From: Ectobius pallidus
Taxonomy: Eukaryota > Arthropoda > Insecta > Blattodea > Ectobiidae
Reading direction: 5' to 3'
DNA length: 64,000 nt
NCBI GenBank assembly: GCA_964059195.1
Contig: CAXKWD010000002.1
Span: 52,292,923 to 52,356,922 of the forward strand
The notes below the pieces were generated by a model that did no database searches, was not told the origin of the DNA, and was given only the letters and a program-made list of their open reading frames with translations. Numbering within the stretch: the first letter of the stretch is position 1; each line of letters opens with the position of its first letter. The position numbers and the translations under genes were made by a program. Below are positions 2,369 through 62,063 of this stretch, piece by piece.

Positions 2369-2887
2369 ATGTCAAGTTCTACTGATAGTGCCGAAGATGA
2401 TATAGGAATTATTAGCTCTTCAAAAAAGCGGAAAAGGCCTGCGTTAAGTGTTTCAGAAAAGCACATAATATTAAACACGTATCAATCTGTGCTAAATTTA
2501 AATCCTACGACATTAATTTCCGATATCGTAAGGGAAGTAGCATATACAACGGGTGTCTGTGAAGCGTCTGTGTATCGAATATTGCGGGAATATAAAGCTA
2601 CCCATAATTTACGATCGCCGAAGAAAGAAAAACCGCGGAAAAAGCTTGTGGACACTCTAAATGAGTCAGTCAAAATCGGTATAAGAAGAAAGGTTCACGA
2701 GTTTTATGCCCGTAATGAAATACCTACGTTGGATAAGCTACTTCTTGCTGTGAATAACGATGAAAATTTGCCGGATTTTCGAAGATCGACGTTTTATGTC
2801 CTAGTTAAGAATTTGAATATCAGCTTTGACCGTCGAGGACGAGACTCATTTCTCGCAGATAAGTGCGAAGTTATGTTAGTGGAACAA
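2369..2887 (+). CDS. First-type exon: transposase-like N-terminal HTH domain
   Basis: This is 173 codons from the ATG at 2369 to a GTAAGT donor at 2888. The exon ends on a codon boundary (phase 0). A basic stretch 'KKRKR' near residue 20, a possible nuclear signal, precedes a helix-turn-helix-like segment with 'TGVCEASVYRILREYK' (about residues 70-85). A second segment follows in the style 'IRRKVHEFYARNEIPTLDKLL', then 'LVKNLNISFDRRG'. This order (HTH, 'GVS.stVyRi', 'fy....PTl.kLL', 'Lk.lgf.f') is typical of the N-terminus of IS630/Tc1-like DDE transposase relatives in arthropods. The DDE catalytic half is absent: after the donor the frame runs only a few dozen unremarkable codons to a stop. 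A second in-frame start upstream would be GTG and is rejected. The DNA-binding role is inferred from family resemblance. Confidence 0.7.
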
Positions 2888-3563
2888 GTAAGTATTGCAA
2901 CATTGTTTATATTTGAAATGATACATTTTAGGCCTGTACTAGATGAACTTTCTGGTAGGCAATTTCGACTTATCCTAACCGTAAGCTATTTTCTCATGTA
3001 CTACCACAGAAAAAATGCCTCACCAACTGCACTATCCAGCAAAACCTGAGCTGGTTTGAATCGTCACATTTTCCTTTTTCTCAATAGAGCTAAATTAATG
3101 TGAACTGAAATCGTGTAGGAAGCGAACAAGAGAAACATTAACATTAAAAAAAAAACAGGATGTATTACATTCACATAACTTTATCTACCTAAATCAAGGT
3201 CTGTAAAACTTTCTCCCTTTACATTCCCATATTGCAGGGAGTGTGTATTTAGTTCATTGTGCCTCACGCCCAAATAGCCTGAGTTGGTCCAAAATATGGC
3301 TCATAACTATTATTCAATTATTTTTTACTAAAAATGTTTCATATGGAAAGTTTTAGCTTTTAGTGTTATCGCTTTGTGAACAAAATACACTCTACAGGAC
3401 ACTCTTGGTTTGAGCAGGGGAACCAGGGAAACGCTACACTAGCGCTGCGAACGGGTGGACCCGCAGCAGTCAGTATCGCCCCGCTTACGAGTGGACTCGC
3501 AGACGGAGTCATAAGCTGAATATAAGTGTATTCGAAAAGTTGTTTAGATGAATGACGTAAAAT
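2888..3563. other. Spacer; GC-rich probable promoter of the THAP gene at 3564
   Basis: This is AT-rich sequence without coding signal. A GC-rich patch at about 3410-3515, with repeated 'gtggac.cgcag' words (3452-3470 and 3490-3505), lies 50-150 bases before the THAP start codon, where a promoter would be expected. No CRE site is present. Confidence 0.4.
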
Positions 3564-5660
3564 ATGTCTTTTGGTAAAGTTTGTGCTTTATATTACTGCA
3601 AAAACAAAGAACACGAAACCAGTTCGAAGTCTTTCTTCAGATTTCCAAAGGAGAAAACCACGTGAGTTTAATTTCACTATTGTTTACTGAAGACATAAGT
3701 CATGATTAAACAGCTAAATTACTTCTTCCACTTAATGATGACTTTTATTGTTAACATTATTGATATCTTTTTACTTTATAGTTGTGATAAATGGGTTCAC
3801 CTGTGCAGGAGGGAGGATTTGGATTCAATTTACAAGGAGACAGGCCCCCTTTATATGTATAAAGCATACAGGCTATGCTCCGACCATTTCATGAAATCAG
3901 ATTATAGAAACCCAAATTTGTCTTCTCAAGGGTAAGTAGACCTGATTACAGTGGTCATTTATCAATGATAAGACATCATTCATTAATATTTCGATTATTT
4001 AAATTTTCCAACTGAGCAAAATTTGTGTTTTTAATATTGTCAATATTCCACTGGTGGCATACTGACAATATTAAAAATCACTCATTAAGTCTAGGGTTGC
4101 CACCCATCCAGAATTGGCCGGTAATATTGATTTTTTGTCCCGGTCAAGACAATAGACAATAGACAAGAGTAACAATATCCCGTAATTTTCTGACAGTAGC
4201 CGCATAGGCCCTAAATACATACGAAAGTAAATTCGTTCAAGATAAAATAATAGACTTTAACGGAAAATTATTTTTCGAGTGCAATGACTGAGTCAATAAT
4301 GAGGAGTGGATATAACAATCTTGAACCTTAACTTATAGCCTTAGCAACCAGGGAAGGCGGTTGAGGCCAGGTAGGTTCCTTCACCCGCTAACACCCTCAC
4401 ATGTACAAGCAGAGGGAATTAGGACCAACCGTAATTTCCTCCCCATGAGTCACCTAGTCTACTTCAATCAATCAATCTTAGATCTTTTTAATATGTAATT
4501 TTATCATAAAATGTTAGTTATATATCAATTCTACACATAATTACAATAAAAATGACACCAAACAATGTATAATTTACTTTAATAGGAACATTTATAACAA
4601 ATACATAAATAAAAGTTACGAGAAAACTGCTGTCAAGTTCTATGTTCCTATTAAAGTAAATTATACATTGTTTGGTGTCATTTTTCTTGTAATTATGTGT
4701 AGAATTGATATATAAGAAACATTTTAAGATAAAATGACATATTAAAAAAATCTAAGATTGACTGATTGAAGTAGACTAGGTGACTCATGGGGAGGAAATT
4801 ACGGTTGGTCCTAATTCCCTCTGCTTGTAAATGTGAGGCTGCTAGCGGGTGAAGGAACCTACCTGGCCTCAACCGCCTTCCCTGGTTGCTAAGGGTATAG
4901 CCTATATCGATTTACAGTATAGGCTATTGTTATATTAGCAGCGTACGTAAAGTTGAATTTACCATGTCCTTTCAAACAATTAAGAACCAAAATTTCTAAT
5001 AATACTTAACGTTGTATTCTAAATTACAACAGCAGTTACAAATTTAAGACAATAAATAAGTTTACTACCGATACATAAATATTTATTTTTTGTGTTTCTT
5101 CTTTTTAAAATTTCCTTTCTCTTATTGCTGTGTACGGGTGTAATTGATTGTATTTTTATTTCGGAATCGTTTGTATTTTCCTTTGGTATAGACTACAGTC
5201 ATGCCCCCCAATCCTGCCATCTGCCTATAGGTAGATGACGCAGCGGTCGGGTGGTAGGCCTTGTCCCTTCGGGGATGTCGCGCCACGGAGTTTAGTTTTT
5301 TTTTATAGACTACAGTATTTATATCCATTTCTGATCTGCCCATGGCGCGATCATCTCTTTATTCGTTGGCGTCTTGATAAAACAAATAGTAAAATTGTAT
5401 TATTGTAATTTGAATCAACAGCAGGCATATTTCGTTGCTTTAGTGAAAAGAAAATTGCCGTTACCTTAACTCAGAAATTCAAAACACGTTAATTTTATTT
5501 TTATTGTTCCTACTAACATTTCAGACTTAAACCAGGAAGCGTTCCATCACAAAATTTGTTGGGCAAAGTTGTATTACAACCAACGAGGGGGAACTCTAGG
5601 AAGAGAGAAAGATCAGAGCCGAACGTAACTAATGATGCTGAAGAAGTTATACAATCAGAG
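3564..5660 (+). CDS. THAP zinc-finger unit in three exons (3564-3661, 3782-3931, 5525-5660)
   Basis: The spliced product is 128 residues. Exon 1 encodes 'CALYYC' (zinc ligands C7, C12) and 'FFRFP'. Exon 2 carries the THAP tryptophan (W37) and 'RLCSDHF' (C65, H68). Exon 3 supplies 'LKPGSVPS' (about 84-91), the degenerate AVPS box that closes THAP domains. Joins: donor GTGAGT at 3662 to acceptor ...TATAG ending 3781 (phase 2), then GTAAGT at 3932 to ...TTCAG ending 5524 (phase 2). The joined reading restores every conserved THAP position, which supports the model. The last exon ends at a GTAATT donor (5661) in phase 0, like the other units. THAP domains bind DNA through C2CH zinc coordination and occur in P-element transposases and host regulators. 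It is the only unit of the array with introns inside the domain. The 1.6-kb second intron carries a fold-back element. Confidence 0.8.
4341..4892. repeat. Long fold-back (inverted repeat) element in THAP intron 2
   Basis: The left arm (about 4341-4591) begins 'ttagcaaccagggaaggcgg'. The right arm (about 4642-4892) is its near-perfect reverse complement, ending 'ccctggttgctaa'. About 50 bases separate the arms. No ORF lies inside. This is a fold-back or MITE-type insertion, and the RNA would form a roughly 250-bp hairpin in the intron. Confidence 0.85.
5195..5292 (-). repeat. SINE fragment
   Basis: Read on the - strand, 'gaagggacaaggcctacca' and 'gcgtcatctacc' match the SINE at 16470-16660 closely. 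It lies within intron 2 of the THAP unit. Confidence 0.6.
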
Positions 5661-9417: not shown

Positions 9418-9808
9418 TATTAATGTTATATAAAAAATAATTGAAAACTAACGATTAATATAATACATAATTATTTACATGTTACTCAGATCTCGGGAGT
9501 GGACAATTCTGATCACATTACTTTGTTCATCGCAACATGGAATTCAATTCACATTACAATTTTGAATGGGACTTTTGGCAAGTAGTACTTCAATATTTGT
9601 CCATACCAGACTTATTTTTAAAGTTTATTTTCTCGTACTCCACCATGTACAACCTCAGAGGCGGAGCTAAACTGGTGGCAACCGTGACGTCACCCGCTTC
9701 AGTTTGTAGAGAGGCATGGGAGTGAAGTAGCCGAGAAATTTGTTCTCGCTTCTTCCAGATTGTAAAACACGTGGGGCATGTAGTGTTTAGTGCTGTAATG
9801 TTTTAAAT
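9418..9808 (+). promoter_or_regulatory. Probable promoter region of the ZMYM1/hAT-like unit
   Basis: This gap between the LINE and the start codon at 9809 contains a perfect CRE at 9685-9692. From 9655 on it is more GC-rich than its surroundings ('ggtggcaaccgtgacgtcac'). It has no credible coding frame. Confidence 0.45.
9685..9692. promoter_or_regulatory. CRE octamer TGACGTCA
   Basis: The site lies in the 10-bp palindrome GTGACGTCAC, 117 bp before the ATG at 9809. The same site at similar spacing precedes four THAP units. CREs bind CREB/ATF-type bZIP factors. Confidence 0.6.
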
Positions 9809-11968
9809 ATGGATCCTGCTTATGATATAGTGTGTATTTTATTAGAAACGCCATTTTCAGATTGGAAAGACGAAGATAAGAAGGAAGTTTTAAATTATGG
9901 GCGCCCTACTGAATCTCTACAAATAAGTGGTACAAAAGAAGTGAAACAGTTAGGCAAATGCTACAATATGAGATTCAAACGATCGTGGTTTACGGATTTT
10001 CCGTGGTTGTGCTCCTCTCCAACACTACAGAAATTGTTTTGTTGGCCATGCCTGCTTTTTAGCTCTAGAAGCAACATTTGGAGCAGAGAAGGGTTTTCTT
10101 CTCTGTCCAATATAACACGAGCGTTACACAACCATGGAGATTTGTCAGAGCATATAATGTGCCAGGTGCATTTGAGAACTTTAAAAAGAAATCTAAATAC
10201 AATTTTAGATGCCCTAAATGAAAATGCTAGATTGAATACCGTGCAGTTCAATGAAAACGTACGTTTGAACAGACTTTTCCTACAGTTGGTGATTGATGCA
10301 GTGCTCTATTTAAACAAGCAAGAATTAACACTTCGCGGTCACGATGAAACAAATTGTGGGAATTTTCAGGAACTGTTGACATTGCTGGTATCAAGGAGTC
10401 CTCTGGAGATACAAAACCAGTATTCCAAGATAAAAAGTGTGTTGAATGACGAATCCAGAAGTATACAAAATGAAATAATCGAGTGCATTTCAGACTACAT
10501 CAATGATTTTGTAAAAACTGAATTGGACACAGCTGGGTTTTTTTCCGTCCAAGTAGATGATATGACAGATATTACTGAAGTGCCTCAGTGTTCTGTTATA
10601 GTGAGGTTCGTTAATGCTGAAGGAGCTGTAGTGGAGCGTTTCTTAGGTTTCTATGAAGTACACGCCGACAGAACACCAGAAACTTTGCTTGCCTTGTTGG
10701 ACAAAATCTTGAGACCATTTGGCTACCAGGACAAATTAGTAGGTCAGTCTTATGATGGCTCAAGCGTGAAGTTTGGCCATTTAAATGAACTCCAGAAACA
10801 AATTAAGGAGAAAGCTCCACTTGCAGTATTTGTACACTCGTTGGCAAACCGCCTAAATCTAGTCTTACAACAGAGTTGCAAAAAAATACGAAAGTGTCGT
10901 ATATTTTTTTCTTCTATAACTGGAATTCCTACCTTGTTCCATCATTTAGCAAAGAGAGCCTATGCAATTACTTCTGTAATGGTACCACGCATTCCAACTG
11001 TAACACTTGCCCGGTGGAGTTCCAATTCAAAATTATTAAGTGTAATTGTGGATGACTGGGAAATTTTGAAAGAGGTTTTCGAAGCCATAGTTTGCTGTGA
11101 ACAGTCTGACGATAATTCCACTCAACTTTCCAGAGGTTTTCTTGGCGACTTGAATAATTTTGAATTCACATTCCTGGCAGTAGTATTTCACGACATATTT
11201 TCTTTGACAGATATGTTGTACGATGTCTTGCAGAAGAGGTCTTTGGATGTTATCTACTGCATATCAGAAATAAGGAATACTTGTGATATGCTAAGAAACA
11301 AAAGGAACGAACAGTGTTTTTCAATTATCTTTGAAAAGGCCAGCAAAATGACGGATATGCACCTCTCAGGAGAGTACAGTTCTGTTTCTAAGGATGAACG
11401 TGTTCCAATGTATAGAGACTTGTATTACGAAATTTTGGATCATATTTTGATGGAAATGAATGAGAGATTTAGCGAGTGTGAAAAAATTCTATTTGTTTGC
11501 CTTGCTGATACCACAAAATTTGAAGAATACCACACACGTTTTCCTTCTAGTGCATTTGAAAACTTGCAAACTGTCTTTGGTTCTGTGTTCCCAAGGGCAC
11601 ATCGCTTAAGAAACGAACTCTCTATTTTGTATGCCGATGAGAAGTACAGACAGATTTCCACCGGAAAGATGTTACAAATGCTTAATGATGCTAAGGATGT
11701 TTTTACTGACACTTATAAATTGTTCTCCCTTATTCTGTCTATCTCTTCTACTACAGCATCTGTAGAAGGAAACTTTTCATGTCTGAAGCGTTTAAAAACA
11801 TACCTCAGAAATACTATTTCAGAAGAGAGACTTTCTCCATTAGCGAACATTGCAATTCAGAAAGAACTTTTACTGCAGTTAATAAAAAGACAGCCATTCT
11901 TTGAAGATGTCATCGACAAGTTTGCAGCCTTAAAGGATCGAAGGATTGATCTGATATACAAGAAATTG
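9809..11968 (+). CDS. ZMYM1-like hAT transposase-derived protein, ends at a splice donor
   Basis: This is 720 uninterrupted codons from the ATG at 9809 to a GTGAGT donor at 11969, ending in phase 0. Domains: a TTF-type zinc finger (about 55-115) with 'FKRSWFTDFPWL' and the Cys motif 'KLFCWPCLLF'; a DUF4371 region (about 180-340); an RNaseH-like core with 'VQVDDMTDI' (about 246-254) and 'GQSYDG'; and a C-terminal hAT dimerisation segment with 'TTASVEGNFSCLKRLKTYLR' (about 645-670). It resembles the 'zinc finger MYM-type protein 1-like' family, which are hAT transposase relatives often kept as host genes. The usual end of that family lies just past the dimerisation segment, so the donor adds a tail rather than cutting the domain. 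The frame shows no decay, unlike other transposon genes here, so it is either young or under selection. A CRE lies 117 bp upstream. Confidence 0.85.
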
Positions 11969-15368: not shown

Positions 15369-15848
15369 ATGGAATTTCGGCAAAGTATTTCCGAAAGAGG
15401 GAACGACATCATTATAGACACCGACGGATTTATTTACAGAAAGAAACAATTTTTAAAAAGTGGAGAGTGTTACTGGTTGTGCTCGTTCAAATCATGTAAA
15501 GCAAATGTTTTTACGATGGGGGATGTTGGTACGGTAACTCGAAGTGACAGAAACCATAACCATGAAATTTCAGTTAAAACGACGAACAGAAAGTTTCTTA
15601 GTACGAATGCGAAAAGAAAAGCAGAGGAGGACACTTCATTACGGCCATCCAAAATAATTTCTTCAGCCATTGAAGAATTTCCAAGTGCTTTAAACACCCT
15701 TACTGCATATGACATAGCCTGTGTGCGGAGGAATATTTACAACAGTAAACGAAGAAAGCTGCCTGCTTTACAGACATGTGGAGAAGTTGCAACGGACACC
15801 ATGGCGAAGACGGCAACAAGGAACGTTGTATCGAAACCTCCAACTGAC
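15369..15848 (+). CDS. First-type exon: FLYWCH zinc finger
   Basis: This is 160 codons from the ATG at 15369 to a GTAAGT donor at 15849, phase 0. A FLYWCH-type finger spans about residues 19-66: 'DGFIYRKKQFL', 'CYWLCSFKSC' and 'RNHNH', with likely zinc ligands C38, C43, H63 and H65. The remaining 90 residues are basic and Ser/Thr-rich ('NAKRK', 'NSKRRK'), which fits nuclear proteins. FLYWCH fingers bind DNA or partner proteins, are best known from Drosophila Mod(mdg4), and also occur with Mutator-like (MULE) transposases. No MULE catalytic domain follows: after the donor the frame reaches a stop within 27 codons. It is the only FLYWCH unit of the array. The start was chosen because it is the first ATG and lies ten codons before the conserved region. 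Confidence 0.8.
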
Positions 15849-18425: not shown

Positions 18426-18779
18426 ATGGTCGAATTTTCTATTGAACAGCGCATTTTTATTGTTAAAACTTATCTTCAGAAAAAAAGATCGTACGAAAGA
18501 TGCATTCGCAAATTTCAAAGACATTATCCTGAATGTAACGTGCCTTCAAAATCGTGTGTTTTAAGACTGTCGAGAAAGTGGCAACAAACCGGAACAGTTT
18601 TAAATCAAAAGAAAGCGTGTCCTAAGAGAGCTCTGACTGAAGAAAATCTTGAGTATATCCGTGCGAGAATTGAAATGAGTCCTGAAAAGTCCAGTCGTCG
18701 ATTAGCTCAGGAAATCGGGATTTCACAAACATCGGTGTTAAGAGGGCTTAAAAGTTTTCCAGCGTCCATGTTAAGAAAG
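18426..18779 (+). CDS. First-type exon: DUF4817 helix-turn-helix
   Basis: This is 118 codons from the ATG at 18426 to a GTGAGT donor at 18780, phase 0. The domain starts directly: 'FSIEQRIFIVKTYLQKKRS' (about 4-22), 'VPSKSCVLRLSRKWQQTGTV' (about 39-58), then a second helical pair 'LTEENLEYIRARIEMSP' and 'SSRRLAQEIGISQTSVLR'. This matches the DUF4817/HTH N-terminal module found ahead of Tc1/mariner-like DDE domains in many insects. The second half ('RRLAQE.GIS.tSV.R') is a classical HTH. There is no DDE region. It is paralogous to 19528 and 44145. An upstream in-frame TTG at 18375 is rejected as a start. Confidence 0.85.
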
Positions 18780-19527: not shown

Positions 19528-19908
19528 ATGGCTCGAGAAAAATATACATTAAAGCAAAGGATTTTTATGTACGATTCGTATGTGCTTACGTCATCTTGCA
19601 AGGACGTTGTACGGCGTTTTGTAACAGAATTCCCAGATGTGCGTCCTCCAAGCAGAGAAGCCGTGCGGAAACTTGTAAATAAATTTCGTGAAACGGGTTC
19701 GTTTCTCGATAGGAAACGACAGGTAAAGCGGCGCGTACTTACTGAGGAGAAATTAGATGAAGTTGCAGAACGATTAGAACATTCTCCTGTAAAATCTCTG
19801 CGAAGGCTTGCACAGCAAACCGAAATTTCAAGGAGCTCGCTATGGCGAGCTACCAAATTCCTGAAATTGAAACAAGAGGAGGGCGTTTCCACCATATCTT
19901 CTGATGAG
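19528..19908 (+). CDS. First-type exon: DUF4817 helix-turn-helix (second copy)
   Basis: This is 127 codons from the ATG at 19528 to a GTACGT donor at 19909, phase 0. It has the same layout as 18426: 'YTLKQRIFMYDSYVLTSSC', 'PPSREAVRKLVNKFRETGSF', 'LTEEKLDEVAERLEHSP' and 'SLRRLAQQTEISRSSLWRAT'. A basic linker 'DRKRQVKRR' lies between the two helical halves. The 'KFRETGS' and 'RRLAQ' cores are also shared with 44145, so the three are paralogues. The exon stops 3 codons after the donor if unspliced, and no catalytic domain follows. The MITE 18916-19389 occupies its upstream region, so the promoter is within about 140 bp or is contributed by the MITE. Upstream in-frame ATGs exist (19402) but lack domain similarity. 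Confidence 0.85.
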
Positions 19909-22121: not shown

Positions 22122-22129
22122 TGACGTCA
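22122..22129. promoter_or_regulatory. CRE octamer TGACGTCA
   Basis: It lies within GTGACGTCAC, 115 bp before the THAP start codon at 22244, in a locally GC-richer stretch ('gttgcagccgtgacgtcac'). Confidence 0.6.
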
Positions 22130-22243: not shown

Positions 22244-22558
22244 ATGCCACATTGTGTTGTATATGGTTGTAATCACTCAACAAAGTCAACAGTTTCCAAG
22301 GAAAATGATATTGGCTTCCACAGATTTCCATATCGTGAGAAATCTCCTGCAAGGTTTTCTGCTTGGGTTAAACAAATCAATCGTGCCAATTTTGTACCAT
22401 CCCAACACAGTTTTGTATGTTCTCAACATTTCAAAGAGGAGGACTATGAACTTAGCTCAAAGTACAAACCTGAACTGCTGAAATCGAACCGGAAACGTGT
22501 GTTAAAAAGAACGGCGATACCAGAATTAAACATGACTGGTTCAGAGATGCAACGCCAG
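22244..22558 (+). CDS. First-type exon: THAP zinc finger (GFHRFP subgroup)
   Basis: This is 105 codons from the ATG at 22244 to a GTATTG donor at 22559 (CAG before it), phase 0. It is a complete THAP domain: C4 and C9 in 'CVVYGC', 'GFHRFP' (24-29), W41, 'FVCSQHF' with C59 and H62, and 'KRTAIP' closing at about 93. This is standard THAP length, with the domain filling almost the whole exon. It is a close paralogue of 46278 and more distantly of 48057, sharing 'KSP.RF.AW', 'FVPSQ' or 'FIPSQ', and 'EEDYELSS'. A CRE lies 115 bp upstream in all three at similar spacing. The donor is weaker than most here. Without splicing the frame runs 33 more codons of low-complexity residues to a stop. Confidence 0.88.
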
Positions 22559-22808: not shown

Positions 22809-23497
22809 TTAAGGGGGGGTATACAGCTTTTGGTGAAATTCATAGTTGATAAAGAGGAAATTTAATTATTTTTCCCTCAGCAATGAATTGCTCTACAATC
22901 TTGTAATCTGGCATGCTCCTCATTGAATACCTCTACTATCACATACTATTTTCAGAATTAAATAAACTGTTACAGTTGTGGGTAATTATCGTTACAAAAT
23001 GGCAGCCACGTTTCGTGCACTAAAATGCAGTTTCCGTGATAATTTCCACAAATGTTAATATTTTTTAGTGATTCTTTTTCTATCAATTTTTAAACATCAT
23101 ATGAACAACACATCGAAAACTTTATTTTTCATTAAAAAATATATAATTATTTTAATAATAAACAATTAATGTTAAATGAATGATTGTAGACAGTGTTCTT
23201 CATATGATGTTAATAAATACACAGAAAAATAATCACTCAGATATATTATATTTATGGAAGTTATCAAGGAACCGGGAATTTCAATGCATGAAACGTGGCT
23301 GCCATTTTGAAACGATAATTACCCGTAACTGTAACAGTTTGATTAGTTTTGAAAATAATATGCAATTGTAGAAGTAGTCAAACAAGAGTATGTCAGATTG
23401 CAAGATTGTAGAGCAATTCATTGCTAAGGGAGAAAATATTTAAGTTCACCTATTTCTCATCTATGAATCTCACCGAAAGCTGTATGTCCCCCCTTAA
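22809..23497. mobile_element. Long-inverted-repeat MITE
   Basis: The left end 'ccttaagggggggtatacag' pairs with the right end 'ctgtatgtccccccttaa'. Inner pairs include 'ggcagccacgtttcgtgca' (about 23002) with 'atgcatgaaacgtggctgcc' (about 23285). The arms are about 230 bp. The ORF at 23180-23371 lies in the right arm and is not a gene. Confidence 0.82.
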
Positions 23498-25915: not shown

Positions 25916-26203
25916 ATGGTGCATTGTTGCATATCTAACTGTAGAAGCAAAAGTGATAGAGAAAAGAACATTTCTTACCACGAATTTCCTTGCAATCAAA
26001 CCGTAAGGGAAAAATGGATAGCAAGTATCCCAGGACAGAATTATGTGCCTAATTTTGTAACAAGAACGTCCTTTGTGTGCGGAAGACATTTTCTTCCTAC
26101 TGATTACCGTCCGAATATGAAAATAAAGGTCCTGAAACCAGATGCTGTGCCTTCGGTATTTGAACCCAGCGAGCGAATCATACAACGGATGAATCGTGCC
26201 AAG
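25916..26203 (+). CDS. First-type exon: THAP zinc finger (YHEFP subgroup)
   Basis: This is 96 codons from the ATG at 25916 to a GTAAGT donor at 26204, phase 0. THAP ligands are C4 and C9 in 'CCISNC', W34 in 'REKWIASIP', and C55 and H58 in 'FVCGRHF', closed by 'LKPDAVPSVF' (73-82). It is clearly paralogous to 42575: same spacing, and both have 'HEFP', 'KW...IP', 'YVPN' and 'DYR'. No CRE octamer lies upstream, so this subgroup seems to use a different promoter type. Past the donor, 22 codons run to a stop with no domain. Confidence 0.9.
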
Positions 26204-29319: not shown

Positions 29320-29715
29320 ATGAAAAGTAATACCTGGCGACGTTCATATACCGCAAGCTTTAAATTGCGGGTTGTGAAATATGCAGAGGAATATGGGAAC
29401 AGGAATGCTGAAAGGCATTTTGGAAAACCACCAACAGAAAAAATGATTAGAACATGGCGTGGTCAGAAAGACATGTTGAACACAATGAGTAAAGAAAAGC
29501 GTGCAAAACGCGGAAGACATGCCGTGTGGCCGGAAGTAGAAAGTGAAGTGTTGAAATGGGTTCAAGAAAATCGGCAAAATGGCATTTCGTTTTCAACAAA
29601 AAAGATTCGCACACACGCGGTTAAAATAGCCCGTGAACGGAATGTTCACGATTTCAGAGGAGGAGCGTCATGGTGTTATCGTTTTATGAAACGTAAAGGA
29701 CTCCTATTGCTTACG
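29320..29715 (+). CDS. First-type exon: CENP-B/pogo-type DNA-binding domain
   Basis: This is 132 codons from the ATG at 29320 to a GTAAGT donor at 29716, phase 0. The N-terminal Psq/Brinker-like HTH 'RRSYTASFKLRVVKYAEEYG' starts at about residue 7 and ends with 'IRTWRGQKDML'. The CENP-B-type second HTH follows: 'WPEVESEVLKWVQENRQNG' (about 70-88), then 'IRTHAVKIARE' and 'FRGGASWCYRFMKRKGL'. These are the two DNA-binding modules of pogo/Tigger/jerky transposases and of CENP-B. The DDE_1 domain that should follow is absent. It belongs to a group of four with 33357, 57401 and 61647. The upstream in-frame GTG at 29269 is rejected. Confidence 0.88.
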
Positions 29716-33356: not shown

Positions 33357-33800
33357 ATGGCCGAGAAAAGGAAGAAAACCGTTGTGACGATGGATGAAAA
33401 ATTTCGTGCTTTAAAAAGGTTGGATGCAGGTGAAACAGCTAAGAAGATTGCTGCTGAAATGGGAGTAGGAACGAGCACAGTGAGTGACTGGAAGAAAGTG
33501 AGGAGTGAGATTGAAAAGTGGTGCTCATCGAAAGATTCTACCAGCGGGATAAAAAAACTGAAAATGATGAAGATAGCCACTAATAAGCAAGTTAATGAGG
33601 CGTTGTATCTTTGGTTTACCCAAAGAAGAGAACAAGGATTGCCGATCTCCGGTCCTTTGTTAAAAGAAAAAGCTTTGCACTTGAGTAAAGAAATCGGAAC
33701 TCATGATGAATTTAAAGCAAGTGATGGGTGGTTAGAAAGTTGGAAAAATCGTTATGATGTGAGGACACTGCAGATTACCGGTGAAAAGCTTTCTGCTAAC
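33357..33800 (+). CDS. First-type exon: CENP-B/Tigger DNA-binding domain inside a Tigger element
   Basis: This is 148 codons from the ATG at 33357 to a GTAAGT donor at 33801, phase 0. The first HTH is 'VVTMDEKFRALKRLDAGE' then 'KKIAAEMGVGTSTVSDWKK' (about 10-46). The second, CENP-B-type HTH runs 'NKQVNEALYLWFTQRREQG' (about 79-97), 'ISGPLLKEKALHL' and 'FKASDGWLESWKNRYDVR'. This is the classical Tigger layout, and the terminal repeats around it confirm the origin. Normal Tigger transposases are intronless and continue into a DDE domain of about 300 residues; here the frame meets a donor and then a stop, and only about 295 bases remain before the terminal repeat. So this is either a deletion derivative or a transposon turned into a host exon. 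It shares donor phase and strand with the other units. Confidence 0.9.
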
Positions 33801-34095
33801 GTAAGTTTACATTGTAAACTGTTTACTTTTTGAGAATATTATAGGAGAGGCAATAATCTGTGGTTCGTGAATGCTTATATATCTGTTTAGTTTTAGTATT
33901 TTCAATTCCTGTATGTGCTGTAGCTTTACACGTTTGTTTTGCTATACTATGGTTGCTAAATGTCTTTAAAAACAGCACTATGCATATAGTACTTATTTCC
34001 GGCCCTCTAGCTATACTTAAATAGCTTGTGATATCCGGATTTTTCCATAACCGGATCGGCCGGTGCCCACATTAATCCGGATATGGCAGGTTGTA

Positions 34096-34866: not shown

Positions 34867-34868
34867 TA

Positions 34869-35640: not shown

Positions 35641-35645
35641 TACTG

Positions 35646-39679: not shown

Positions 39680-39687
39680 TGACGTCA
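39680..39687. promoter_or_regulatory. CRE octamer TGACGTCA
   Basis: It lies within GTGACGTCAC, 118 bp before the THAP start codon at 39805, in a GC-rich patch (39670-39735). Confidence 0.6.
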
Positions 39688-39804: not shown

Positions 39805-40413
39805 ATGCCTGCGTGCAGTGCTAACGGTTGTTCAAATAATTCTGGTGTCCATAGAAGTGTTGGTTACTATGCATTCCCTGATAAAAACAAGAACAGACAT
39901 TTGTACAACAAATGGGTTTCTTGCATGAAGCGTAAAAATTTTGTTCCAACAAAAAATTCTAGAGTATGTGGAAAGCATTTTACAGAAGATGATTTTAACG
40001 AATCGGATATTTTAAAAATCAGAATATTGAAGGATGAAAAATTCAGGTGCCCTAGACTAAAAGACAATGCGGTACCTTCAAAGTTTTTAGTAGGTAGTAA
40101 AGAAATTCCTTTAAAGAGGGAAGTGTTGGAATTAATTGATAATTCAGTAACTGATTCTAAACACGAAAGAGAAGCTACACAAGTTTATGACTGTATGCAT
40201 GTAGAGTTGAAGACTGACGCAGAAATACAGTGTGAGACAGGCACAGAAATTTATAGAGCTGCAAATTCTGTCTGTATGAACTACATTGATGAACATGACA
40301 CCTCGGATGGTAAGGATGAAGATTACGTCCCCGATGAAATCATCAGTGAAGGAGAAGAAGATGGCATAGAAAATATAAAGTTGTCGGAAAAATATTCTTC
40401 TGTGTTTGTCTGT
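39805..40413 (+). CDS. First-type exon: THAP zinc finger with acidic tail
   Basis: This is 203 codons from the ATG at 39805 to a GTAAGT donor at 40414, phase 0. THAP domain residues 1-93: C4 and C9 in 'CSANGC', 'YYAFP', W37, 'RVCGKHF' (C55, H58), closed by 'NAVPSKF' (89-95). The domain is longer than in the other units because of an insert before the AVPS box. It is followed by about 110 residues rich in Asp and Glu, including 'DEHDTSDGKDEDYVPDE' and 'EGEEDGIE'. It is the longest THAP unit and the only one that brings its own acidic region, which could act in activation or protein contact (inference). An upstream in-frame ATG is not seen, and the codon at 39799 is not ATG. A CRE lies 118 bp upstream. 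Confidence 0.88.
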
Positions 40414-42574: not shown

Positions 42575-42847
42575 ATGGTCTATTGTTGCGTACCCAACTG
42601 TAAAAAAGAGAGCGGGAAAGGCAAACGAATATCTTTTCACGAATTTCCACTAGATGAAGAATTAAGACAAAAGTGGCTAAGAAAAATACCCAGAGAGGGT
42701 TATGTCCCTAATTATAATTCAAGAGCATCTGTGGTGTGCGGTTTGCATTTTCGTGAATCGGATTACCGTCTTGGTTTGAAAACGCGGAGACTGAAACCCA
42801 ATGCTTTCCCATCGATATTTGATCAATGGAGATATCCAGTGAGAAAG
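42575..42847 (+). CDS. First-type exon: THAP zinc finger (HEFP subgroup, second copy)
   Basis: This is 91 codons from the ATG at 42575 to a GTAAGT donor at 42848, phase 0. THAP ligands are C4 and C9 in 'CCVPNC', W34, and C55 and H58 in 'VVCGLHF', closed by 'LKPNAFPSIF', in which Phe replaces Val of the AVPS box. Residue spacing is identical to 25916, so the pair arose by duplication, and the two units are 16 kb apart with unrelated units between them. It is the shortest unit in the array. No CRE lies upstream, as for its paralogue. Confidence 0.9.
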
Positions 42848-44144: not shown

Positions 44145-44504
44145 ATGTTCACTATTGAAGAACGAGAGTTCCTGGTGGAACAAGTTTTTCGTGACCGTGG
44201 AAAGTTTACGGAAAATGTGAAAAAGAAGTTTCTTATGCGTTTTCCTAATTCTAAGTGTCCAAACCGTGACACTGTTCGTGATTTGATTAGGAAATTTCGT
44301 GAAACTGGTTCAGTTCGCGATGCACCAAGAAGTGGTAGACCTACGGTTTTAACGGAAGAGAAACTTAAAACAATTTCAGATATATTGAAGCGTAGTCCTA
44401 AGAAATCCGTGCGGAGATTATCACACGAGGCTAATGTATCTTATTCGACAGCACATAAGGCCATTACCTTACACCGGAAATTACACTCCTGTAAGATTGC
44501 TAAG
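44145..44504 (+). CDS. First-type exon: DUF4817 helix-turn-helix (third copy)
   Basis: This is 120 codons from the ATG at 44145 to a GTGAGT donor at 44505, phase 0. It has the same order as 18426 and 19528: 'FTIEEREFLVEQVFRDRG', 'CPNRDTVRDLIRKFRETGSV' (about 37-57), linker 'APRSGRPTV', 'LTEEKLKTISDILKRSP', and 'SVRRLSHEANVSYSTAHK'. It is the most canonical of the three, since 'RSGRP..LTEE' is the common DUF4817/mariner linker. In autonomous elements a DDE domain follows this module directly; here the frame ends 15 codons past the donor. Confidence 0.88.
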
Positions 44505-46147: not shown

Positions 46148-46155
46148 TGACGTCA
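46148..46155. promoter_or_regulatory. CRE octamer TGACGTCA
   Basis: It lies within GTGACGTCACTG, 123 bp before the THAP start codon at 46278. The flank 'GTGACGTCACTGT' is shared with 22122. Confidence 0.6.
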
Positions 46156-46277: not shown

Positions 46278-46583
46278 ATGCCCTACTGTGTCGCGAAAGG
46301 CTGTAACCACTCTTCAAATTCAAAAACATCGAAAGAAGAGGGAATTGGCTTTCACAGATTTCCCAGTCGTCAAAAATCGCCGGAAAGATTCACTGCTTGG
46401 CTAAGGAAAATTAACCGGATCAATTTTATACCTTCTCAATCATCTACAGTCTGTTCAGAACATTTCAGGGAAGAAGATTATGAACTTTCCAGTAGACTGA
46501 AATCTGAACTCCTCAAGGAAAAGAAGATAAGGATGTTGAAAAAGACAGCTGTACCACAATTAAATTTAGAAAGGGTGAAGTTG
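46278..46583 (+). CDS. First-type exon: THAP zinc finger (GFHRFP subgroup)
   Basis: This is 102 codons from the ATG at 46278 to a GTGAGT donor at 46584, phase 0. THAP residues are C4 and C9 in 'CVAKGC', 'GFHRFP', W41, 'TVCSEHF' (C59, H62), closed by 'KKTAVPQLN'. It aligns without gaps to 22244 over 90 residues ('HS..SK.SKE.GIGFHRFP' pattern) and is its closest relative in the window. The related THAP 48057 lies next to it, 1.5 kb downstream. The promoter context (CRE at -123) is also shared, so promoter and exon probably duplicated together. The start is the ATG three codons before C4, standard for THAP proteins. Confidence 0.9.
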
Positions 46584-47948: not shown

Positions 47949-47956
47949 TGACGTCA
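47949..47956. promoter_or_regulatory. CRE octamer TGACGTCA
   Basis: It reads ATGACGTCAC, 101 bp before the THAP start codon at 48057. It is the only one of the seven without G in front. Confidence 0.55.
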
Positions 47957-48056: not shown

Positions 48057-48509
48057 ATGACTGTATGTTGTGTTTTTGGGTGCAGAAATCGTTCTGAACA
48101 TGGTCAGAGCAATAATGTAAGTTTTCACAAATTCCCTGGTAAAGAAAGATCACCGGAAAGACATGATGCATGGTTAAAAATAATTAATCGTGATGACTTC
48201 GTTCCAAGCAAATTCTCACAAGTATGCTCTGACCATTTTACTGAAGACGACTATGAAGCATCATGCCTGTTAAAGTGTAATCTTCTTAAAACTAAATTAC
48301 GTCGAGTTTTAAAAAGAAGTGCTATTCCTTCTCTCCATTTGAAGGGACAAGAACAATCAGATCCTCTATTAAAAAGAAAAAGGAAAGATTCGGAAGCAGC
48401 TTCTATTTTCGAGTCTTACGAAGATTTCGTAAAACAAGTTTCGTTACATGATTGCCGAACAAAGCAACCAAAAAGATCAGATTTCAAGAGAAGTGCGTCA
48501 TCGGAAAAG
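48057..48509 (+). CDS. First-type exon: THAP zinc finger with basic tail
   Basis: This is 151 codons from the ATG at 48057 to a GTAAAT donor at 48510, phase 0. THAP residues are C4 and C9 in 'CCVFGC', 'SFHKFP', W39, 'QVCSDHF' (C57, H60), closed by 'KRSAIPSL' (about 87-94). After the domain comes a basic, charged stretch with 'LLKRKRKDSE' and 'KQPKRSDFKR', a likely nuclear signal. It belongs to the same subgroup as 22244 and 46278 ('SPERHDAW', 'EDDYE'), but is diverged. An upstream in-frame start at 48015 ('MSLLQCVVF...') would add hydrophobic residues before the finger and is less likely, because THAP domains normally begin at the N-terminus. Confidence 0.88.
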
Positions 48510-50370: not shown

Positions 50371-50697
50371 ATGGAGTGTGCAATTTCTACGTGCAAAAAT
50401 TACTGGAGGGTTACGAAAGGCAACAAACAAATGATATATCACGTTTTTCCGAGAGACAAAAAATTGGCAGCAGCTTGGTTGACGAAATGTAGGCGAGAGG
50501 ACCCAGTGAACATTGACAATGCAAGAATCTGTTCTCTTCATTTTGATGAAAACGATTATTTAAGAGATCTAGAACGAGAACTGTTAGGGTTACCATCTAG
50601 AAGACGCAGGCGCCTGAAACCAGACGCTGTGCCTCACCTGTTCCTACCTGGTGCAACAGTTCTGGGCATACCAAGAAGAAATGCTAAAAAAGAACAG
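50371..50697 (+). CDS. First-type exon: THAP zinc finger (divergent)
   Basis: This is 109 codons from the ATG at 50371 to a GTACGA donor at 50698 (CAG before it), phase 0. THAP residues are C3 and C8 in 'CAISTC', 'YHVFP' (23-27), W36 in 'AAAWLTKCRR', 'RICSLHF' (C54, H57), a basic run 'SRRRRRLKPDAVPHLF' (76-91) and a basic end 'PRRNAKK'. The first Cys is at residue 3 rather than 4. It has no close paralogue in the window. A polypyrimidine-poor 'caatttgtag' at about 50299 could be an acceptor for an untranslated first exon starting near the CRE at 49567; this is speculative. The upstream in-frame codon at 50254 is inside untranslated sequence with no THAP similarity. Confidence 0.85.
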
Positions 50698-51443: not shown

Positions 51444-51769
51444 GTAGCAAGTATGCTATATCAGAAGTTGGTAAACAAAATTGGATTAATTGATACCGTA
51501 TTCATAGCTGTAATTTTCGCAGAAGGCCTAGTTGAAAAAAGGCTAAATCATTTTGGGGATGAGGAGTTTCTAACTGCTAAATTTTTGTTTGGGGTTAAGT
51601 CAGTGGCGTCAAAATATTCAAGTGTTCATTGGCTGAAAATAGGAAAGTAAAATACAGAGATATAGATATAATAAGCATTCATGAACCACAGATTCTCTCT
51701 GTTGGATATTGTTAGGGCATTCAGTCATAGGAGAGAAGTTCCATCTGGCGCTGTGAGTTGAACTCCGGC

Positions 51770-51840
51770 GTAGCTCAGTTGGTAGAGCATTGGCGCGAAT
51801 AGCCAAAGGTCCTGGATTCAAGTCCCAGTGTCGGAGGAAT
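51770..51840 (+). repeat. tRNA-like SINE head
   Basis: It folds as a tRNA: acceptor CTCCGGC/GTCGGAG, D arm GCTC...GAGC, anticodon stem TTGGC/GCCAA, T arm CTGGA/CCCAG with loop TTCAAGT. The anticodon-loop position 33 is C instead of T and the T stem has a mismatch, so a working tRNA is unlikely. On the - strand it reads 'DLNPGPLAIRANALPTEL', a common translation of tRNA-derived SINEs. Confidence 0.65.
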
Positions 51841-56309: not shown

Positions 56310-56693
56310 ATGCCTTCATGTTTTATTCCCGGGTGCAGAAATGGTTATGGAAGTTCCCGCGGATGTCATACATTTAGAGCTCCGACCAATAAGGAAGATT
56401 TTGATAAATGGGCCCAAGCTATCGGACGAAAGGACAGAAAGTTTTCTAGTAAAAGTAACGTATGCCAGGCTCATTTTTCTGAAGATTCTATAATCAAGTC
56501 GGATTCTTTCGTTATAATGGGCGAGCGAGTAGAAATACACAGGGCAAGATGGAAATTAAAACCTGGTGCAGTGCCCCATATATTTCCAGACATTACCCAG
56601 TATGTGTTTAAGAAAGTTAAGTCCGAACGAAGAACCCAGAAAGAAGATGCAAGTAAAACTGGCAACAGAAGAAAGAAACGAAATAGAGATGCG
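56310..56693 (+). CDS. First-type exon: THAP zinc finger with basic tail
   Basis: This is 128 codons from the ATG at 56310 to a GTAAGA donor at 56694, phase 0. THAP residues are C4 and C9 in 'CFIPGC', 'CHTFRAP', W34 in 'DKWAQAIGRK', and C52 and H55 in 'VCQAHF', then a longer loop and 'KLKPGAVPHIF' (82-92). The last 30 residues are strongly basic ('KKVKSERR', 'NRRKKRNRDA'), a probable nuclear signal. An acceptor-like 'atttatttcag' ends 10 bp before the ATG, so an untranslated upstream exon is possible. It has no close paralogue among the other THAP units. After the donor, 17 codons run to a stop. Confidence 0.88.
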
Positions 56694-57400: not shown

Positions 57401-57844
57401 ATGGGTCCAGTGAGAGCTAGTGCCACTTCTAAATTTAAGCTAAAAGTTGCGCGTTATGCATTAAAACATGGAAAGAGGGCAGCAGGGAGAAAGTTTAACG
57501 TAGATGAAAAAAATGTACGACGCTGGATTCAAACAAAGGACGCTTTAGAAAAAACGTCTGAAAGTCGACAAGCTTTCCGCGGGAAGAAAGCAAAATACCC
57601 AGGTCTCGAAAGAGATCTAGTGGATTACGTACATAAAAGACGAGCAGAGGGATTTTCTGTTTCCGTCGCAATGATTCAGACTGAAGCTCTCAGGATAGCG
57701 AAGGACATGGCAATTCCTTGCAGTGAGTTTAGGGCTAGTTATGGTTGGGCCGTGCGTTTTATAGCGCGCCATGAACTTCGGCGTCCTACATCTACAGCAC
57801 AGAAGCTTCCGGATACATGCCAAGAGAAACTGATAATTTATAAG
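57401..57844 (+). CDS. First-type exon: CENP-B/pogo-type DNA-binding domain
   Basis: This is 148 codons from the ATG at 57401 to a GTATGT donor at 57845, phase 0. The first HTH is 'SKFKLKVARYALKHGKRAAG' then 'FNVDEKNVRRWIQTKDAL' (about 7-46). The CENP-B-type second HTH has 'YPGLERDLVDYVHKRRAEG' (about 66-84), 'VSVAMIQTEALRIAKD' and 'FRASYGWAVRFIARHEL', and it ends with 'RPTSTAQKLPD'. In pogo-like transposases that last region is the link to the DDE domain, which is missing here. It resembles 29320 more than 33357 (both 'F KLRVV/KLKVA..Y' starts). It lies 700 bp after the THAP unit 56310, the closest neighbours of different class in the array. Confidence 0.9.
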
Positions 57845-59613: not shown

Positions 59614-59910
59614 ATGCCCACTATGATTCCCGATGGTGAACGAGACTTGATTCGATATGTGACTGCAAAATGCGAAGAAGAAAAAAGGGACGGTTGGAAG
59701 TTTCCTCGAAATCAAGCTTCGAAAAGAATAGCTTTTTTGACAGGAAATAAGTATCCTTCGAATCCACTTTCTAGTGGTGAAAGAAAATTAATTTTACATA
59801 TAATTGCAATGTGTAAAGAAGAAGAAAGGGTCGGTTGGATGTTCCCTAGAGACCAGTCCTTGCAGAGAGCTGCCTATTTGACAGGGAAGTCAGTTGCATT
59901 CATAGGCCAG
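59614..59910 (+). CDS. First-type exon: duplicated HTH-like module
   Basis: This is 99 codons from the ATG at 59614 to a GTAAAC donor at 59911 (CAG before it), phase 0. The protein is two copies of one 35-residue unit: 'GERDLIRYVTAKCEEEKRDG' with 'KFPRNQASKRIAFLTG' (about 8-44), and 'GERKLILHIIAMCKEEERVG' with 'MFPRDQSLQRAAYLTG' (about 54-90). The pattern (helix, acidic 'CxEEExxGW', 'FPRxQxxxRxAxLTG') resembles the start of HTH segments ahead of transposase domains like that at 2369 ('..VREVAYTTGV..'), but I cannot name the family. No paralogue elsewhere in the window. The donor is weaker than most. Confidence 0.6.
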
Positions 59911-61646
59911 GTAAACAAACTGTGCAAAACCTATTGCAAGAACTTTTTCATCTATGATAGTCATGAACTTCATTTCCTTAAAGGGCATGAAATTTCTGGA
60001 ACAGAATTCTGAGGCGGAAGACAAAGATGCATTTAAAACAAGAAACTGCTATTTTGTTATTATTTTACACATTCCGTTACAAAAAAAAAATCAATTTTAA
60101 TATAATTTTTGACATGAACAAGTTGACGAAATATTGGTATTTACTTGTATATCCGGAATTTATGGACATAGGCTATAGTAATTTCAATTTCCAACATTAT
60201 TTCATTGGTTTTGGTTTGGCTATTGTTTGTTACGGCTGTTAAATCTTACAGTTGGTGAAATACCGTACTTCCAAAATGTATCGTTTGTTTTAACAGTTTG
60301 CTACAAATTTTTTGGTGCCATGCAAAAAATTCAAACTAACATTTTTTTAAAGCAGGATGTTCTTTCGGAGTGAGATTTTATTTTTTAATTAGTTCATTTC
60401 TGATATGTAAACAGATTATAAGCTGTAATATTCATAATATATTTTGTACGTAAACAAATAGGGGAGGGAATAGTTCTTCATAGTTCCCAAAAGGCCTATA
60501 ATTACCAAAACTTCTGGGCTTATACCATATGTAAGAATTATGCCGACTAAAATTCACGGTTTGCTACCGTGGCCTTGTATAACAGTAGTTATATTTCAAA
60601 ACACAAAACACAAAATATAGTAACTATATTTATTAATTGTTAATAAATTTCATTTTGACTAGGCCTACTTACTACTCCATCTTCTGCCATATAATAAAAT
60701 TTAGGCCTACAAATCTCTTAAGGTCGGAAGTTTATGAAAATCGTATTTTTAAAATAATGCACTCCATTACTTGCTAATTTTAAAACTATGTACAAGGCAT
60801 GAAAAAAAAATGGCAGAAAATTATGGTTTAATTTTCCAAACTGTCGCATATTTTGTTTGTTTCGAGATAATGCATCACATTTGCGTAATATTAAAATATT
60901 TATGGGTTTCTTATTTATTTATCACATTTTTAAGGGCATATTTCTGACTTCGGAGCTGATTGTATGATATTAAAGTGATTTTTCACTTCATGAGTTTCAA
61001 TTTACTAAAAACTGTTGTATGAACCTTGTTCTTTTTTAAAAAGTTTTAATGTAATTTACACATCTTTACCATTTTTTATAATTTAAAATGTAATTCACTA
61101 ACAAAGAACGTGAAGTATTAAAATTACTTTTATGATAGCGCACACTTAATTGATTCTGGACCATATTTTACAAATTTTAGAGCACATTTTCATGCATATT
61201 TCGTCTTCTGATAAAACATTAACTTCCGTGCTAAATCCTCGTTAAAACGTTCCCGTTTATTACGCTCTTTTTAATGCTTCGGTCGCTGGACATTTCATAT
61301 GTAACCTTATATCATTTTAATCTGCCATAACGTTATAAATTACACTTCATTCAAATCCCATTTGCATCAGTTTTTTTTTTTTTAAATCATAAATTGTATA
61401 TTGTGAAAATTGTAATGCTTTAAGGTGTTGTAAAGAAAATTTTTCTCTTGACGGTAGGGACGGAATGGAATTTCACTGGTGTACTTGGAAAATTTGTCTG
61501 CCATACTCAGAACTATGGTATGCACGTAGAATTATTGTGCTTAACGGTACTTTTGTGTGACGCAAGACTGTTGGACCTACCTTGACGTTCTTTCTCTAGT
61601 TTAGTCTTCTTTTGAACCCTGTGAGGTGCAGTTGTGAGAGGGGAAA
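59911..61646. other. Spacer, no gene seen
   Basis: The block 59990-60090 shares words with 63628-63710 ('cagaattctgaggcg', 'aaagat..gcattt'). The rest is AT-rich. The ORF at 60027-60242 is unsupported. Confidence 0.4.
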
Positions 61647-62063
61647 ATGATCAGGCGGAAATCCCTTTCTATAAGTGAAAAGCTGCAAATTCTTCATAAG
61701 TACGATGAAAATTCTACACAGAATCATAAGAATTTCGCAGCCTCTATAGGAATCCCTTCATCCACTTTAAGAACGATTATAAAAAATAGAGATGATATTA
61801 CTCATGCAGCGAAAGGTAGCTGCAAACGTAGAAAAGTCAAGTGTGGAAAATATGAAGATGTCGAAGAAATCCTCGTTGAATGGATTCAGCAGTCCCGTGA
61901 TGCTGCATCAGTACCGTTAAGAGGACCGATAATTCAAGAAAAGGCACGAGAAATTGCAAGTCAATTGAACAACGCAGACTTCACTGCTTCAACCGGTTGG
62001 TTACACAGATTCAGACAAAGGCATGGCTTAGTGAGCCGCCAAAATAATGGAGAATCAGAATCG
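61647..62063 (+). CDS. First-type exon: CENP-B/Tigger-type DNA-binding domain
   Basis: This is 139 codons from the ATG at 61647 to a GTTAGT donor at 62064, phase 0. The first HTH is 'LSISEKLQILHKYDENS' then 'FAASIGIPSSTLRTIIKNRD' (about 7-50). The second is 'YEDVEEILVEWIQQSRDAA' (about 71-89), 'LRGPIIQEKAREIASQL' and 'FTASTGWLHRFRQRHGLVSR'. It is the best match here to the canonical CENP-B/Tigger order ('GWL.RFk.RhgI'). The linker 'GSCKRRKVKCGK' is basic. It is the last unit seen before the right edge. After the donor, 11 codons run to a stop. No terminal repeats of a transposon were found around it, unlike 33357. Confidence 0.9.

Follow-up and report, generated by a model that had tools for sequence, protein, structure and literature searches.

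Introduction

Clustered protocadherin and UGT1 loci carry variable first exons ahead of constant 3' exons, and a comparable layout is described here for a locus of the insect Ectobius pallidus. The analysis centres on a stretch of 64,000 nucleotides (assembly GCA_964059195.1, contig CAXKWD010000002.1, hereafter C2, positions 52292923-52356922, + strand; the window), for which a sequence-only reading had proposed about 20 interchangeable DNA-binding first exons of one locus. Examination of the window and its flanks indicates that almost 70 alternative first exons, most of them of transposon-type DNA-binding character, are probably spliced to one shared BESS-like 3' exon, a prediction under which the locus would encode a family of proteins with swappable heads, and each first exon likely has its own promoter. 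The observed basis consists of open units, a common strand, an excess of phase-0 splice donors, a tail exon at the end of the array, enriched motifs ahead of the units and two intact transposons. As in the protocadherin and UGT1 loci, there is a same-strand array of first exons with the constant part 3', a shared splice phase (in excess of chance, not in every unit) and promoter-like signals ahead of many first exons. However, the heads of those loci are paralogues of a single family, encoding ectodomains or enzymes, whereas the heads here are DNA-binding and come from several unrelated transposon superfamilies.

A second comparison is offered by mod(mdg4) and lola, where, according to PMC4667647, one locus combines one constant interaction part with many swappable DNA-binding parts, FLYWCH among them. 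The arrangement in the present locus is alike in this respect and opposite in order: mod(mdg4) and lola have their constant BTB part at the 5' end and the exons for DNA binding behind it, whereas here the heads are 5', the tail is 3' and there is no BTB. Given that its heads are not one family and that its constant part is 3' and without BTB, the locus resembles protocadherin and UGT1 in layout and mod(mdg4) and lola in outcome, and is a member of neither.

Fusions of host and transposase sequence are known from vertebrates, with 94 independent events across tetrapods (PMC8616336, on Cosby et al. 2021), and transposon-derived transcription factors of several of the domain types found here are reported across animals (PMC10027918). 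The locus shares with such fusions a transposase-derived DNA-binding part, and this part is predicted to be joined to a host domain by splicing, with which the splice sites and phase are consistent; it differs from the vertebrate examples in that dozens of predicted heads would be joined to one tail in one locus and in that the transposon contributes the N-terminus and likely a promoter as well. The BESS domain lies at the C-terminus of MADF-BESS proteins, where it homodimerises (PMC10573801). The likeness to these factors is that at least three of five weak paralogues of the tail follow MADF exons; the differences are that no N-terminal MADF was found among the units and that the BESS family of Pfam does not match the tail. 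In Drosophila guanche, the tandem P-element sequences of Miller et al. (1992) reportedly belong to one family and form stand-alone repressor-like genes with no shared tail exon; what they have in common with the present locus is a cluster of THAP-bearing transposon remnants kept by the host. A search of the open-access literature in one library returned no description of a locus of this kind.

Results

Positions outside the window are given as x, the position on C2 minus 52,292,922, which prolongs the window numbering along the chromosome. The region examined comprised the window with 200 kb downstream and 60 kb upstream of it (324 kb in all), within an assembly of 2.12 Gb in 410 contigs. On the + strand of this region there are 68 open frames of head type, from x -59.2 kb to 198.4 kb: 19 in the window (U1 to U19, Table 1), 46 from the 51 clusters outside it (the other five being broken and dropped) and three in a further 10 kb upstream, where Pfam identifies Tc5, THAP and DUF4817 domains. 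The array spans at least 257 kb, its outermost upstream 10 kb still holding these three + strand units. The sequence-only reading had placed about 20 units on one strand; this stood for the window, where all 19 are on the + strand between 2369 and 62030 and each is open from its own ATG as claimed, and it fell short in extent, since the array runs beyond the window and amounts to nearly 70 open units. Outside the window, places similar to the 19 window units, with self-matches excluded, lie on the + strand in 45 of 46 cases. A wider query set, which takes in outside units and hence some self-matches, gave 74 clusters in 314 kb, 73 on the + strand and one on the - strand, the lone minus-strand cluster being a hAT copy at x -47227.

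Domains were assigned by Pfam to 17 of the 19 window units, namely THAP in eight, HTH_Tnp_Tc5/CENP-B in four, DUF4817 in three, FLYWCH in one and hAT in one (U2, with DUF4371 and Dimer_Tnp_hAT). U1, without a Pfam match, is about 50% identical to the N-terminus of the DDE_3-type transposases P0001 and P0003, so that transposase-type DNA-binding domains, as had been claimed, are named by Pfam in those 17 and by transposase similarity in U1. U18 has no domain match in Pfam and contains an internal duplication (59634-59747 and 59775-59888, 71% DNA identity over 114 bp); its fold model, all helices, is of low confidence and is not used as evidence. In structure comparisons residues 3-126 of U19 match the CENP-B DNA-binding domain 1hlv (E 5e-22), the domain of U9 likewise matches 1hlv end to end, and U11 matches THAP domains. 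The units had also been described as free of catalytic domains, which holds for 18 of 19, U2 being a nearly whole hAT transposase. Most of the nearly 70 units encode a transposon-type DNA-binding domain, and some near-complete transposases and a few plain transposon copies are among them, pieces of the latter kind making up at least four of the 68 (x -6352, 91385, 189541, 196638).

An ordinary gene cluster in which each unit has separate 3' exons was rejected, since Pfam yielded no catalytic domain from 136 of the window's 153 other + strand open reading frames of at least 50 amino acids; a tblastn search of the window with nine transposases likewise revealed no further catalytic domain. The lone THAP match among these other frames most likely corresponds, according to a home-made THAP profile, to a THAP fragment in a short open frame at 3699-3932 (+), perhaps a broken or multi-exon unit. 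Minus-strand open reading frames of at least 60 amino acids (n=107) gave pieces of long interspersed nuclear element (LINE) reverse transcriptase and endonuclease and one weak HTH_28 match (E 1.3e-4), and none of the 107 gave THAP, DUF4817, Tc5 or FLYWCH. LINE-type reverse transcriptase and endonuclease frames lie in pieces at 7197-9447 (-).

The best-scoring splice donor is in phase 0 in 17 of the 19 window units, against a mean of 7.9 and a maximum of 14 in 500 codon shuffles, and the mean best donor score is 5.1 in the units vs 3.2 in the shuffles. Scoring of the intron side alone gave phase 0 in 15 of 19 (shuffle mean 8.2, maximum 14), and exact GTRAGT occurs in the window unit frames 13, 1 and 0 times in phases 0, 1 and 2. 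The donors listed in Table 1, of which 11 of 19 are GTRAGT, were hand-picked among phase-0 sites and their common phase is no evidence. The units outside the window provide an independent test, the phase idea having been formed without them: here the best donor is in phase 0 in 34 of 46 units (300 shuffles: mean 20.6, standard deviation 3.3, maximum 30), and GTRAGT falls in phases 0, 1 and 2 in 19, 6 and 0 cases vs shuffle means of 7.1, 5.2 and 0.5. This excess of phase-0 donors, inside and outside the window, supports the earlier proposal that the units end at a splice donor. Beyond the picked donor the frame closes after 21 codons on average (3-53 across the window units), the corresponding lengths being 16 codons from noncoding positions drawn at random and 17 from GTRAGT sites that lie outside units, whereas the window exons are open for 91-720 codons. 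Since the frame stays open past the donor for hardly longer than in noncoding DNA, the coding part of a unit appears to finish close to this site.

The candidate tail exon lies 142 kb beyond the window at x 206409-206885 (L023:2409-2885; C2:52499331-52499807), with an acceptor TTAGTTTCAG/TTTGGTGG (intron/exon) in phase 0, 159 codons, a stop and an AATAAA about 150 bp further on. Its first ATG comes only after about 95 codons, so that translation has to begin in an exon further upstream; among the matches listed the tail exon is single copy. The last unit, at x 198054, ends ATT/GTAAGT in phase 0, which is expected if the tail exon is the common partner. The array ends here: 70 unit clusters lie in the 242 kb upstream of x 206409 (x -43.6 to 198.4 kb) vs two in the 57 kb downstream, a count that leaves out the MADF gene and the minus-strand hAT. 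The two + strand clusters beyond are a MADF match at 222165 and a degenerate mariner-type helix-turn-helix (HTH) at 237667. The sequence-only reading had expected the units to share an acceptor on the + side, at most several hundred kb away, and a fitting phase-0, single-copy exon is present; its view of one locus with a common C-terminal part, in which the splicing is predicted, draws support from this candidate tail, the halt of the array at it, the donor phase and the motifs ahead of the ATGs.

On the + strand of 314 kb, 29 places have an acceptor with 100 or more open codons behind it. The other places were rejected as host 3' exons, being by eye unit frames, MADF exons, transposon or repeat sequence, or frames resembling nothing (for example x 77804 and 189877), and the tail exon is taken, by the same judgement, to be the host 3' exon among them. 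Five weak paralogous exons of the tail were found (E 1.5e-5 to 9.2e-4), and the aligned paralogues have in common the C-terminal module EFxxFGxxVAxQLRxLPxxxALxxQxxIQxLL. At least three of the five are preceded on the same strand by a MADF exon, at distances of about 2, 9 and 40 kb (best 150 MADF candidates), and on this sequence evidence the tail is taken to be the C-terminal exon of a MADF-type gene. Pfam matched no family to the tail up to E 1, BESS (PF02944) included, and the description 'BESS-like' is a reading proposed here; by analogy such a tail may dimerise. A candidate optional exon at x 194737-194868 (L022:737-868), phase 0 on both sides, encodes a VKEEI linker; its acceptor is strong, with a score reached by 16 of 15181 AG sites. 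This exon may belong to the gene, but isoforms that start from the THAP unit at x 198054, which is located downstream, could not include it.

An internal contrast is provided by the MADF gene at x 94842, which has two exons, its own stop and a phase-1 intron. It is nested in the array on the same strand (L012:803-1000 and L012:3132-4030; x 94803-98030) and gives a weak BESS match. No MADF head was found among the units ahead of the tail, the sole MADF gene in the array being this separate one. Further MADF/BESS gene exons lie downstream of the tail exon (L025:189-980 and L028:2462-2848), which indicates that this stretch of C2 holds several MADF genes.

Ahead of the ATGs two motifs were found in excess. 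TCAGT, the arthropod initiator core, occurs within 300 bp before 13 of the 19 window units (control 5.3, a count reached in none of 300 draws), before 14 of 31 other units (control 8.7, 2.8% of draws as high) and before 30 of 55 units together (control 16.0 +- 3.4, none of 1000 draws as high); TATAAA is not enriched before the window units. A k-mer search was made on 55 of 65 open units, after removal of ten that were transposon copies, near-duplicates or incomplete. It found TGACGTCA, the cyclic AMP response element (CRE) palindrome, before 10 of 55 vs 0.54 expected. The 324 kb contain 19 exact sites, and 13 of these fall in the 400-bp intervals ahead of 61 ATGs, which together make up 7.5% of the sequence; the motif stands at -100 to -130 in the THAP units U6, U10, U13, U14, 71767 and 88568 and in the hAT unit U2.

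The relation of the units to their transposons is seen in two intact elements elsewhere, each with one unbroken frame. A THAP frame of 689 codons (L039) carries a U13-like domain at its N-terminus, the remainder being weakly like MULE transposase by Pfam, and a frame of CENP-B type with DDE_1 (L040, 508 codons) carries a U19-like domain at its N-terminus. Neither frame is interrupted by an intron, and an origin of the units from transposase genes in which an intron follows the DNA-binding domain was rejected on this ground. The similarity of U13 to the transposase stops 5 residues before the U13 donor. Different stages can be seen in the array. At x -6352 and 91385 the units match the 5' part of L039 at 95-96%, the second of them with a KP-like internal deletion in which element positions 2-449 are joined to 2101-2250, and the unit at x 88568 is 83% identical to L039 with a low-scoring GTAAGT in phase 0. 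Among the best 150 matches of U13, its closest relative after itself is U6 (65% protein identity), with DNA likeness from the ATG onward, and by hand count 8 of 8 array hits are stop-free vs 20 of 142 elsewhere; since the dispersed copies share ancestry, this contrast counts as support rather than as a test. Scattered copies with 52-61% identity to U19 (L002-L008) have short DNA-binding-only frames, some with stops, and are perhaps non-autonomous elements bearing only the head.

Table 1. Features of the array. Positions refer to the window, or to a retrieved segment where an L number is given; a slash marks the exon/intron boundary.
Feature	Position	Strand	Remarks
U1, head exon, N-terminal part of DDE_3-type transposase	2369..2887	+	donor CAA/GTAAGTAT, phase 0
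U2, nearly whole hAT/ZMYM1-type transposase	9809..11968	+	no stop ahead of donor TTG/GTGAGTTT, phase 0
U3, FLYWCH head exon	15369..15848	+	donor GAC/GTAAGTAG, score 3.2, phase 0
U4, DUF4817 HTH head exon	18426..18779	+	donor AAG/GTGAGTGA, phase 0
U5, DUF4817 head exon	19528..19908	+	donor GAG/GTACGTGA, phase 0
U6, THAP head exon	22244..22558	+	weak donor CAG/GTATTGTG, score 1.2, phase 0
U7, THAP head exon	25916..26203	+	donor AAG/GTAAGTGA, phase 0
U8, Brinker-type HTH + HTH_Tnp_Tc5 head exon	29320..29715	+	donor ACG/GTAAGTGC, phase 0
U9, CENP-B_N + HTH_Tnp_Tc5 head exon	33357..33800	+	donor AAC/GTAAGTTT, score 3.3; best-scoring donor 33497 also phase 0
U10, THAP head exon	39805..40413	+	hand-picked donor TGT/GTAAGTAT, score 0.8, phase 0; best-scoring donor 40309, phase 1
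U11, THAP head exon	42575..42847	+	donor AAG/GTAAGTCA, phase 0
U12, DUF4817 + HTH_32 head exon	44145..44504	+	donor AAG/GTGAGTGC, phase 0
U13, THAP head exon	46278..46583	+	donor TTG/GTGAGTAG, phase 0
U14, THAP head exon	48057..48509	+	weak donor AAG/GTAAATTT, score 3.8, phase 0
U15, THAP head exon	50371..50697	+	donor CAG/GTACGAAT, phase 0
U16, THAP head exon	56310..56693	+	donor GCG/GTAAGAGC, phase 0
U17, Brinker-type HTH + HTH_Tnp_Tc5 head exon	57401..57844	+	donor AAG/GTATGTAT, phase 0
U18, unnamed, internally duplicated	59614..59910	+	weak donor CAG/GTAAACAA, score 3.7, phase 0
U19, CENP-B_N + HTH_Tnp_Tc5 head exon	61647..62030	+	hand-picked very weak donor TTA/GTGAGCCG, score -0.5, phase 0; best-scoring donor 61815, phase 1
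piggyBac (DDE_Tnp_1_7) transposase frame, nearly whole	L014:971-2797	+	inside array
hAT-like transposase frame, nearly whole	L017:300-2381	+	inside array
TGACGTCA (CRE-like)	9685..9692		124 bp before U2 ATG
TGACGTCA	22122..22129		122 bp before U6 ATG
TGACGTCA	39680..39687		125 bp before U10 ATG
TGACGTCA	46148..46155		130 bp before U13 ATG
TGACGTCA	47949..47956		108 bp before U14 ATG

Other features were noted in the region and the genome. The units at L031:4990-5727, L032:3364-4101 and x -21342 are alike, all three having repeated HTH motifs and, at the C-terminus, a U1-like part, and a stretch at L030:1385-1858 (x -38615) resembles a Crypton core-binding region by eye, Pfam giving a borderline Pox_D5 match alone. 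Within the window, ARAGORN predicts a tRNA-Phe (gaa) at 51763-51837 (+), either a gene or a tRNA-derived repeat; there is a tandem duplication of about 783 bp, 97% identical, at 34092-35646, and inverted repeats at 4334-4899 (90% self-complementary) and 22809-23497 (79%) are possibly foldback elements. Mitochondrial COX1 has 94 matches across many contigs of the assembly, several of them nearly full length and on large contigs; one nuclear copy shares 96% identity with several cockroaches of the Blaberidae and Blattidae, which marks the animal as a cockroach.

Discussion

The organisation of the locus suggests how it may have arisen. DNA transposons of several superfamilies would have inserted upstream of a MADF-type gene, the promoter and DNA-binding part of each being retained; a splice donor would have arisen at or near the edge of the domain and the body of the transposase would have been lost. 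The simplest account is then cis-splicing of alternative first exons to one tail, in which promoter choice would select the head: a first exon can do without a 3' splice site, and units further along would be removed with the intron. The tail, an acidic linker followed by a BESS-like module, would let isoforms dimerise or recruit partners, and each head would recognise the ends of the element family that gave rise to it, most likely regulating or repressing that family. For one vertebrate fusion of host and transposase sequence, binding to hundreds of cognate sites is described (PMC8616336, citing Cosby et al.). The combination of a dimerising tail with transposon-specific heads suggests, by analogy, that these proteins may serve to control their cognate elements.

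Several observations weigh against the proposal of heads spliced to a shared tail. There are nearly whole transposases among the members (U2, a piggyBac at x 114971 and a hAT at x 144300), and the frames of 5 of the 51 outside clusters are broken. The weights used for splice-site scoring were set by hand, 7 of the 19 picked window donors score below 4 (U3, U6, U9, U10, U14, U18 and U19), the best donors of U10 and U19 are phase-1 sites and the picked donor of U19 is very weak; outside the window the best donor is in another phase in 12 of 46 units, the misfits including plain transposon copies and a THAP unit at x 108971 with a phase-1 donor within its domain; a similar phase-1 site occurs at x 81933. 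The transposase similarity of U19 continues about 12 residues beyond its picked donor and U10 resembles the L039 protein past its own. With regard to the upstream motifs, the longer initiator forms TTCAGT and TCAGTT are not enriched in the 31 outside units, and 12 of the 13 ATG-near TGACGTCA sites precede THAP-type units, two of which are young transposon copies with the site at -124, so that shared descent may account for these sites; given that the motif is mostly at THAP units, young copies included, THAP transposons are its probable source, and it would have been retained after their arrival. Acceptors equal to that of the tail stand before 3 of 19 window and 6 of 31 outside ATGs vs 12% at random, and the mean best acceptor score before ATGs is 2.2 in the window and 2.9 outside it vs 1.7 at random; as these counts and means are near or above random, an absence of acceptors before the units is not demonstrated. 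The acceptor of the tail itself is moderate, 224 of 15181 AG sites in 264 kb scoring as high, and two protein database searches, one of them over the best 7997 candidates, found no head-tail isoform and no tail orthologue. Purifying selection was rejected as an argument; dS is near or beyond saturation, and the ratio of nonsynonymous to synonymous substitution rates (dN/dS) is 0.45 (NG86) or 0.37 (YN00) for U7/U11, and other pairs give 1.3-4.9 or no finite dS.

It is conceivable that the units are stand-alone truncated transposases, read through the apparent donor to a nearby stop and repressing their own transposon family. The KP repressors of Drosophila P elements are DNA-binding fragments of this sort, formed as internal deletions, and the unit at x 91385 is such a deletion of a THAP transposon; furthermore, the short window frames past the picked donors would place a stop within reach, and tandem P-element sequences are known in D. 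guanche (PMC8616336, reference list). However, this is unlikely, given that it leaves unexplained the excess of phase-0 donors, the near-uniform strand and the halt of the array at a phase-0 host exon, and given that the frames past the donors are about as short as in noncoding DNA. It could also be argued that the array is a graveyard of DNA transposons upstream of a MADF-type gene from which no fusion is expressed, strand and phase being by-products of segmental duplication and transposon structure. Young transposon copies do lie inside the array (x -6352 and 91385), the genome is full of related elements and some outside clusters are broken, yet several unrelated superfamilies would have to share one strand and mostly one phase, the array matches of U13 are stop-free far more often than the dispersed ones (these being related, not independent), and U6, which matches U13 best after U13 itself, belongs to the same array, with the DNA alike from the ATG on alone. 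On balance a graveyard is considered quite unlikely.

A different route to the same proteins would be separate transcription of the units and their joining to the tail by trans-splicing, as in mod(mdg4), rather than in cis. The promoter-like signals at many units are consistent with this, and trans-splicing is documented for mod(mdg4), in one butterfly across a 550-kb locus (PMC4667647). Given that nearly all units are on one strand and upstream of the tail, cis-splicing suffices, with a largest intron of about 265 kb, and trans-splicing is therefore very unlikely.

If alternative first exons are indeed joined to one tail in cis, the locus could further be regarded as a transposon-capture locus, in which a host gene keeps turning invading DNA transposons of many superfamilies into promoter-plus-head modules on a dimerising tail and so adds heads against new invasions; its proteins would form a repertoire that recognises the parasites of the genome by means of the parasites' own DNA-binding domains. 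The young THAP copies already in the array are in keeping with a continuing addition of heads, and the suggestion is offered tentatively, as a possibility on the doubtful side. If the main reading of swappable heads on one shared tail is right, a single locus would display the capture of transposase DNA-binding domains as a repeated process still under way, in which captures of old, intermediate and recent date coexist, and the origin of host-transposase fusions would become directly testable. The locus would also be the mirror image of mod(mdg4) and lola, its heads chosen by promoter rather than by 3' exon, and a candidate, in a hemimetabolous insect, for a protein-based parallel to the control of transposons by small RNAs.

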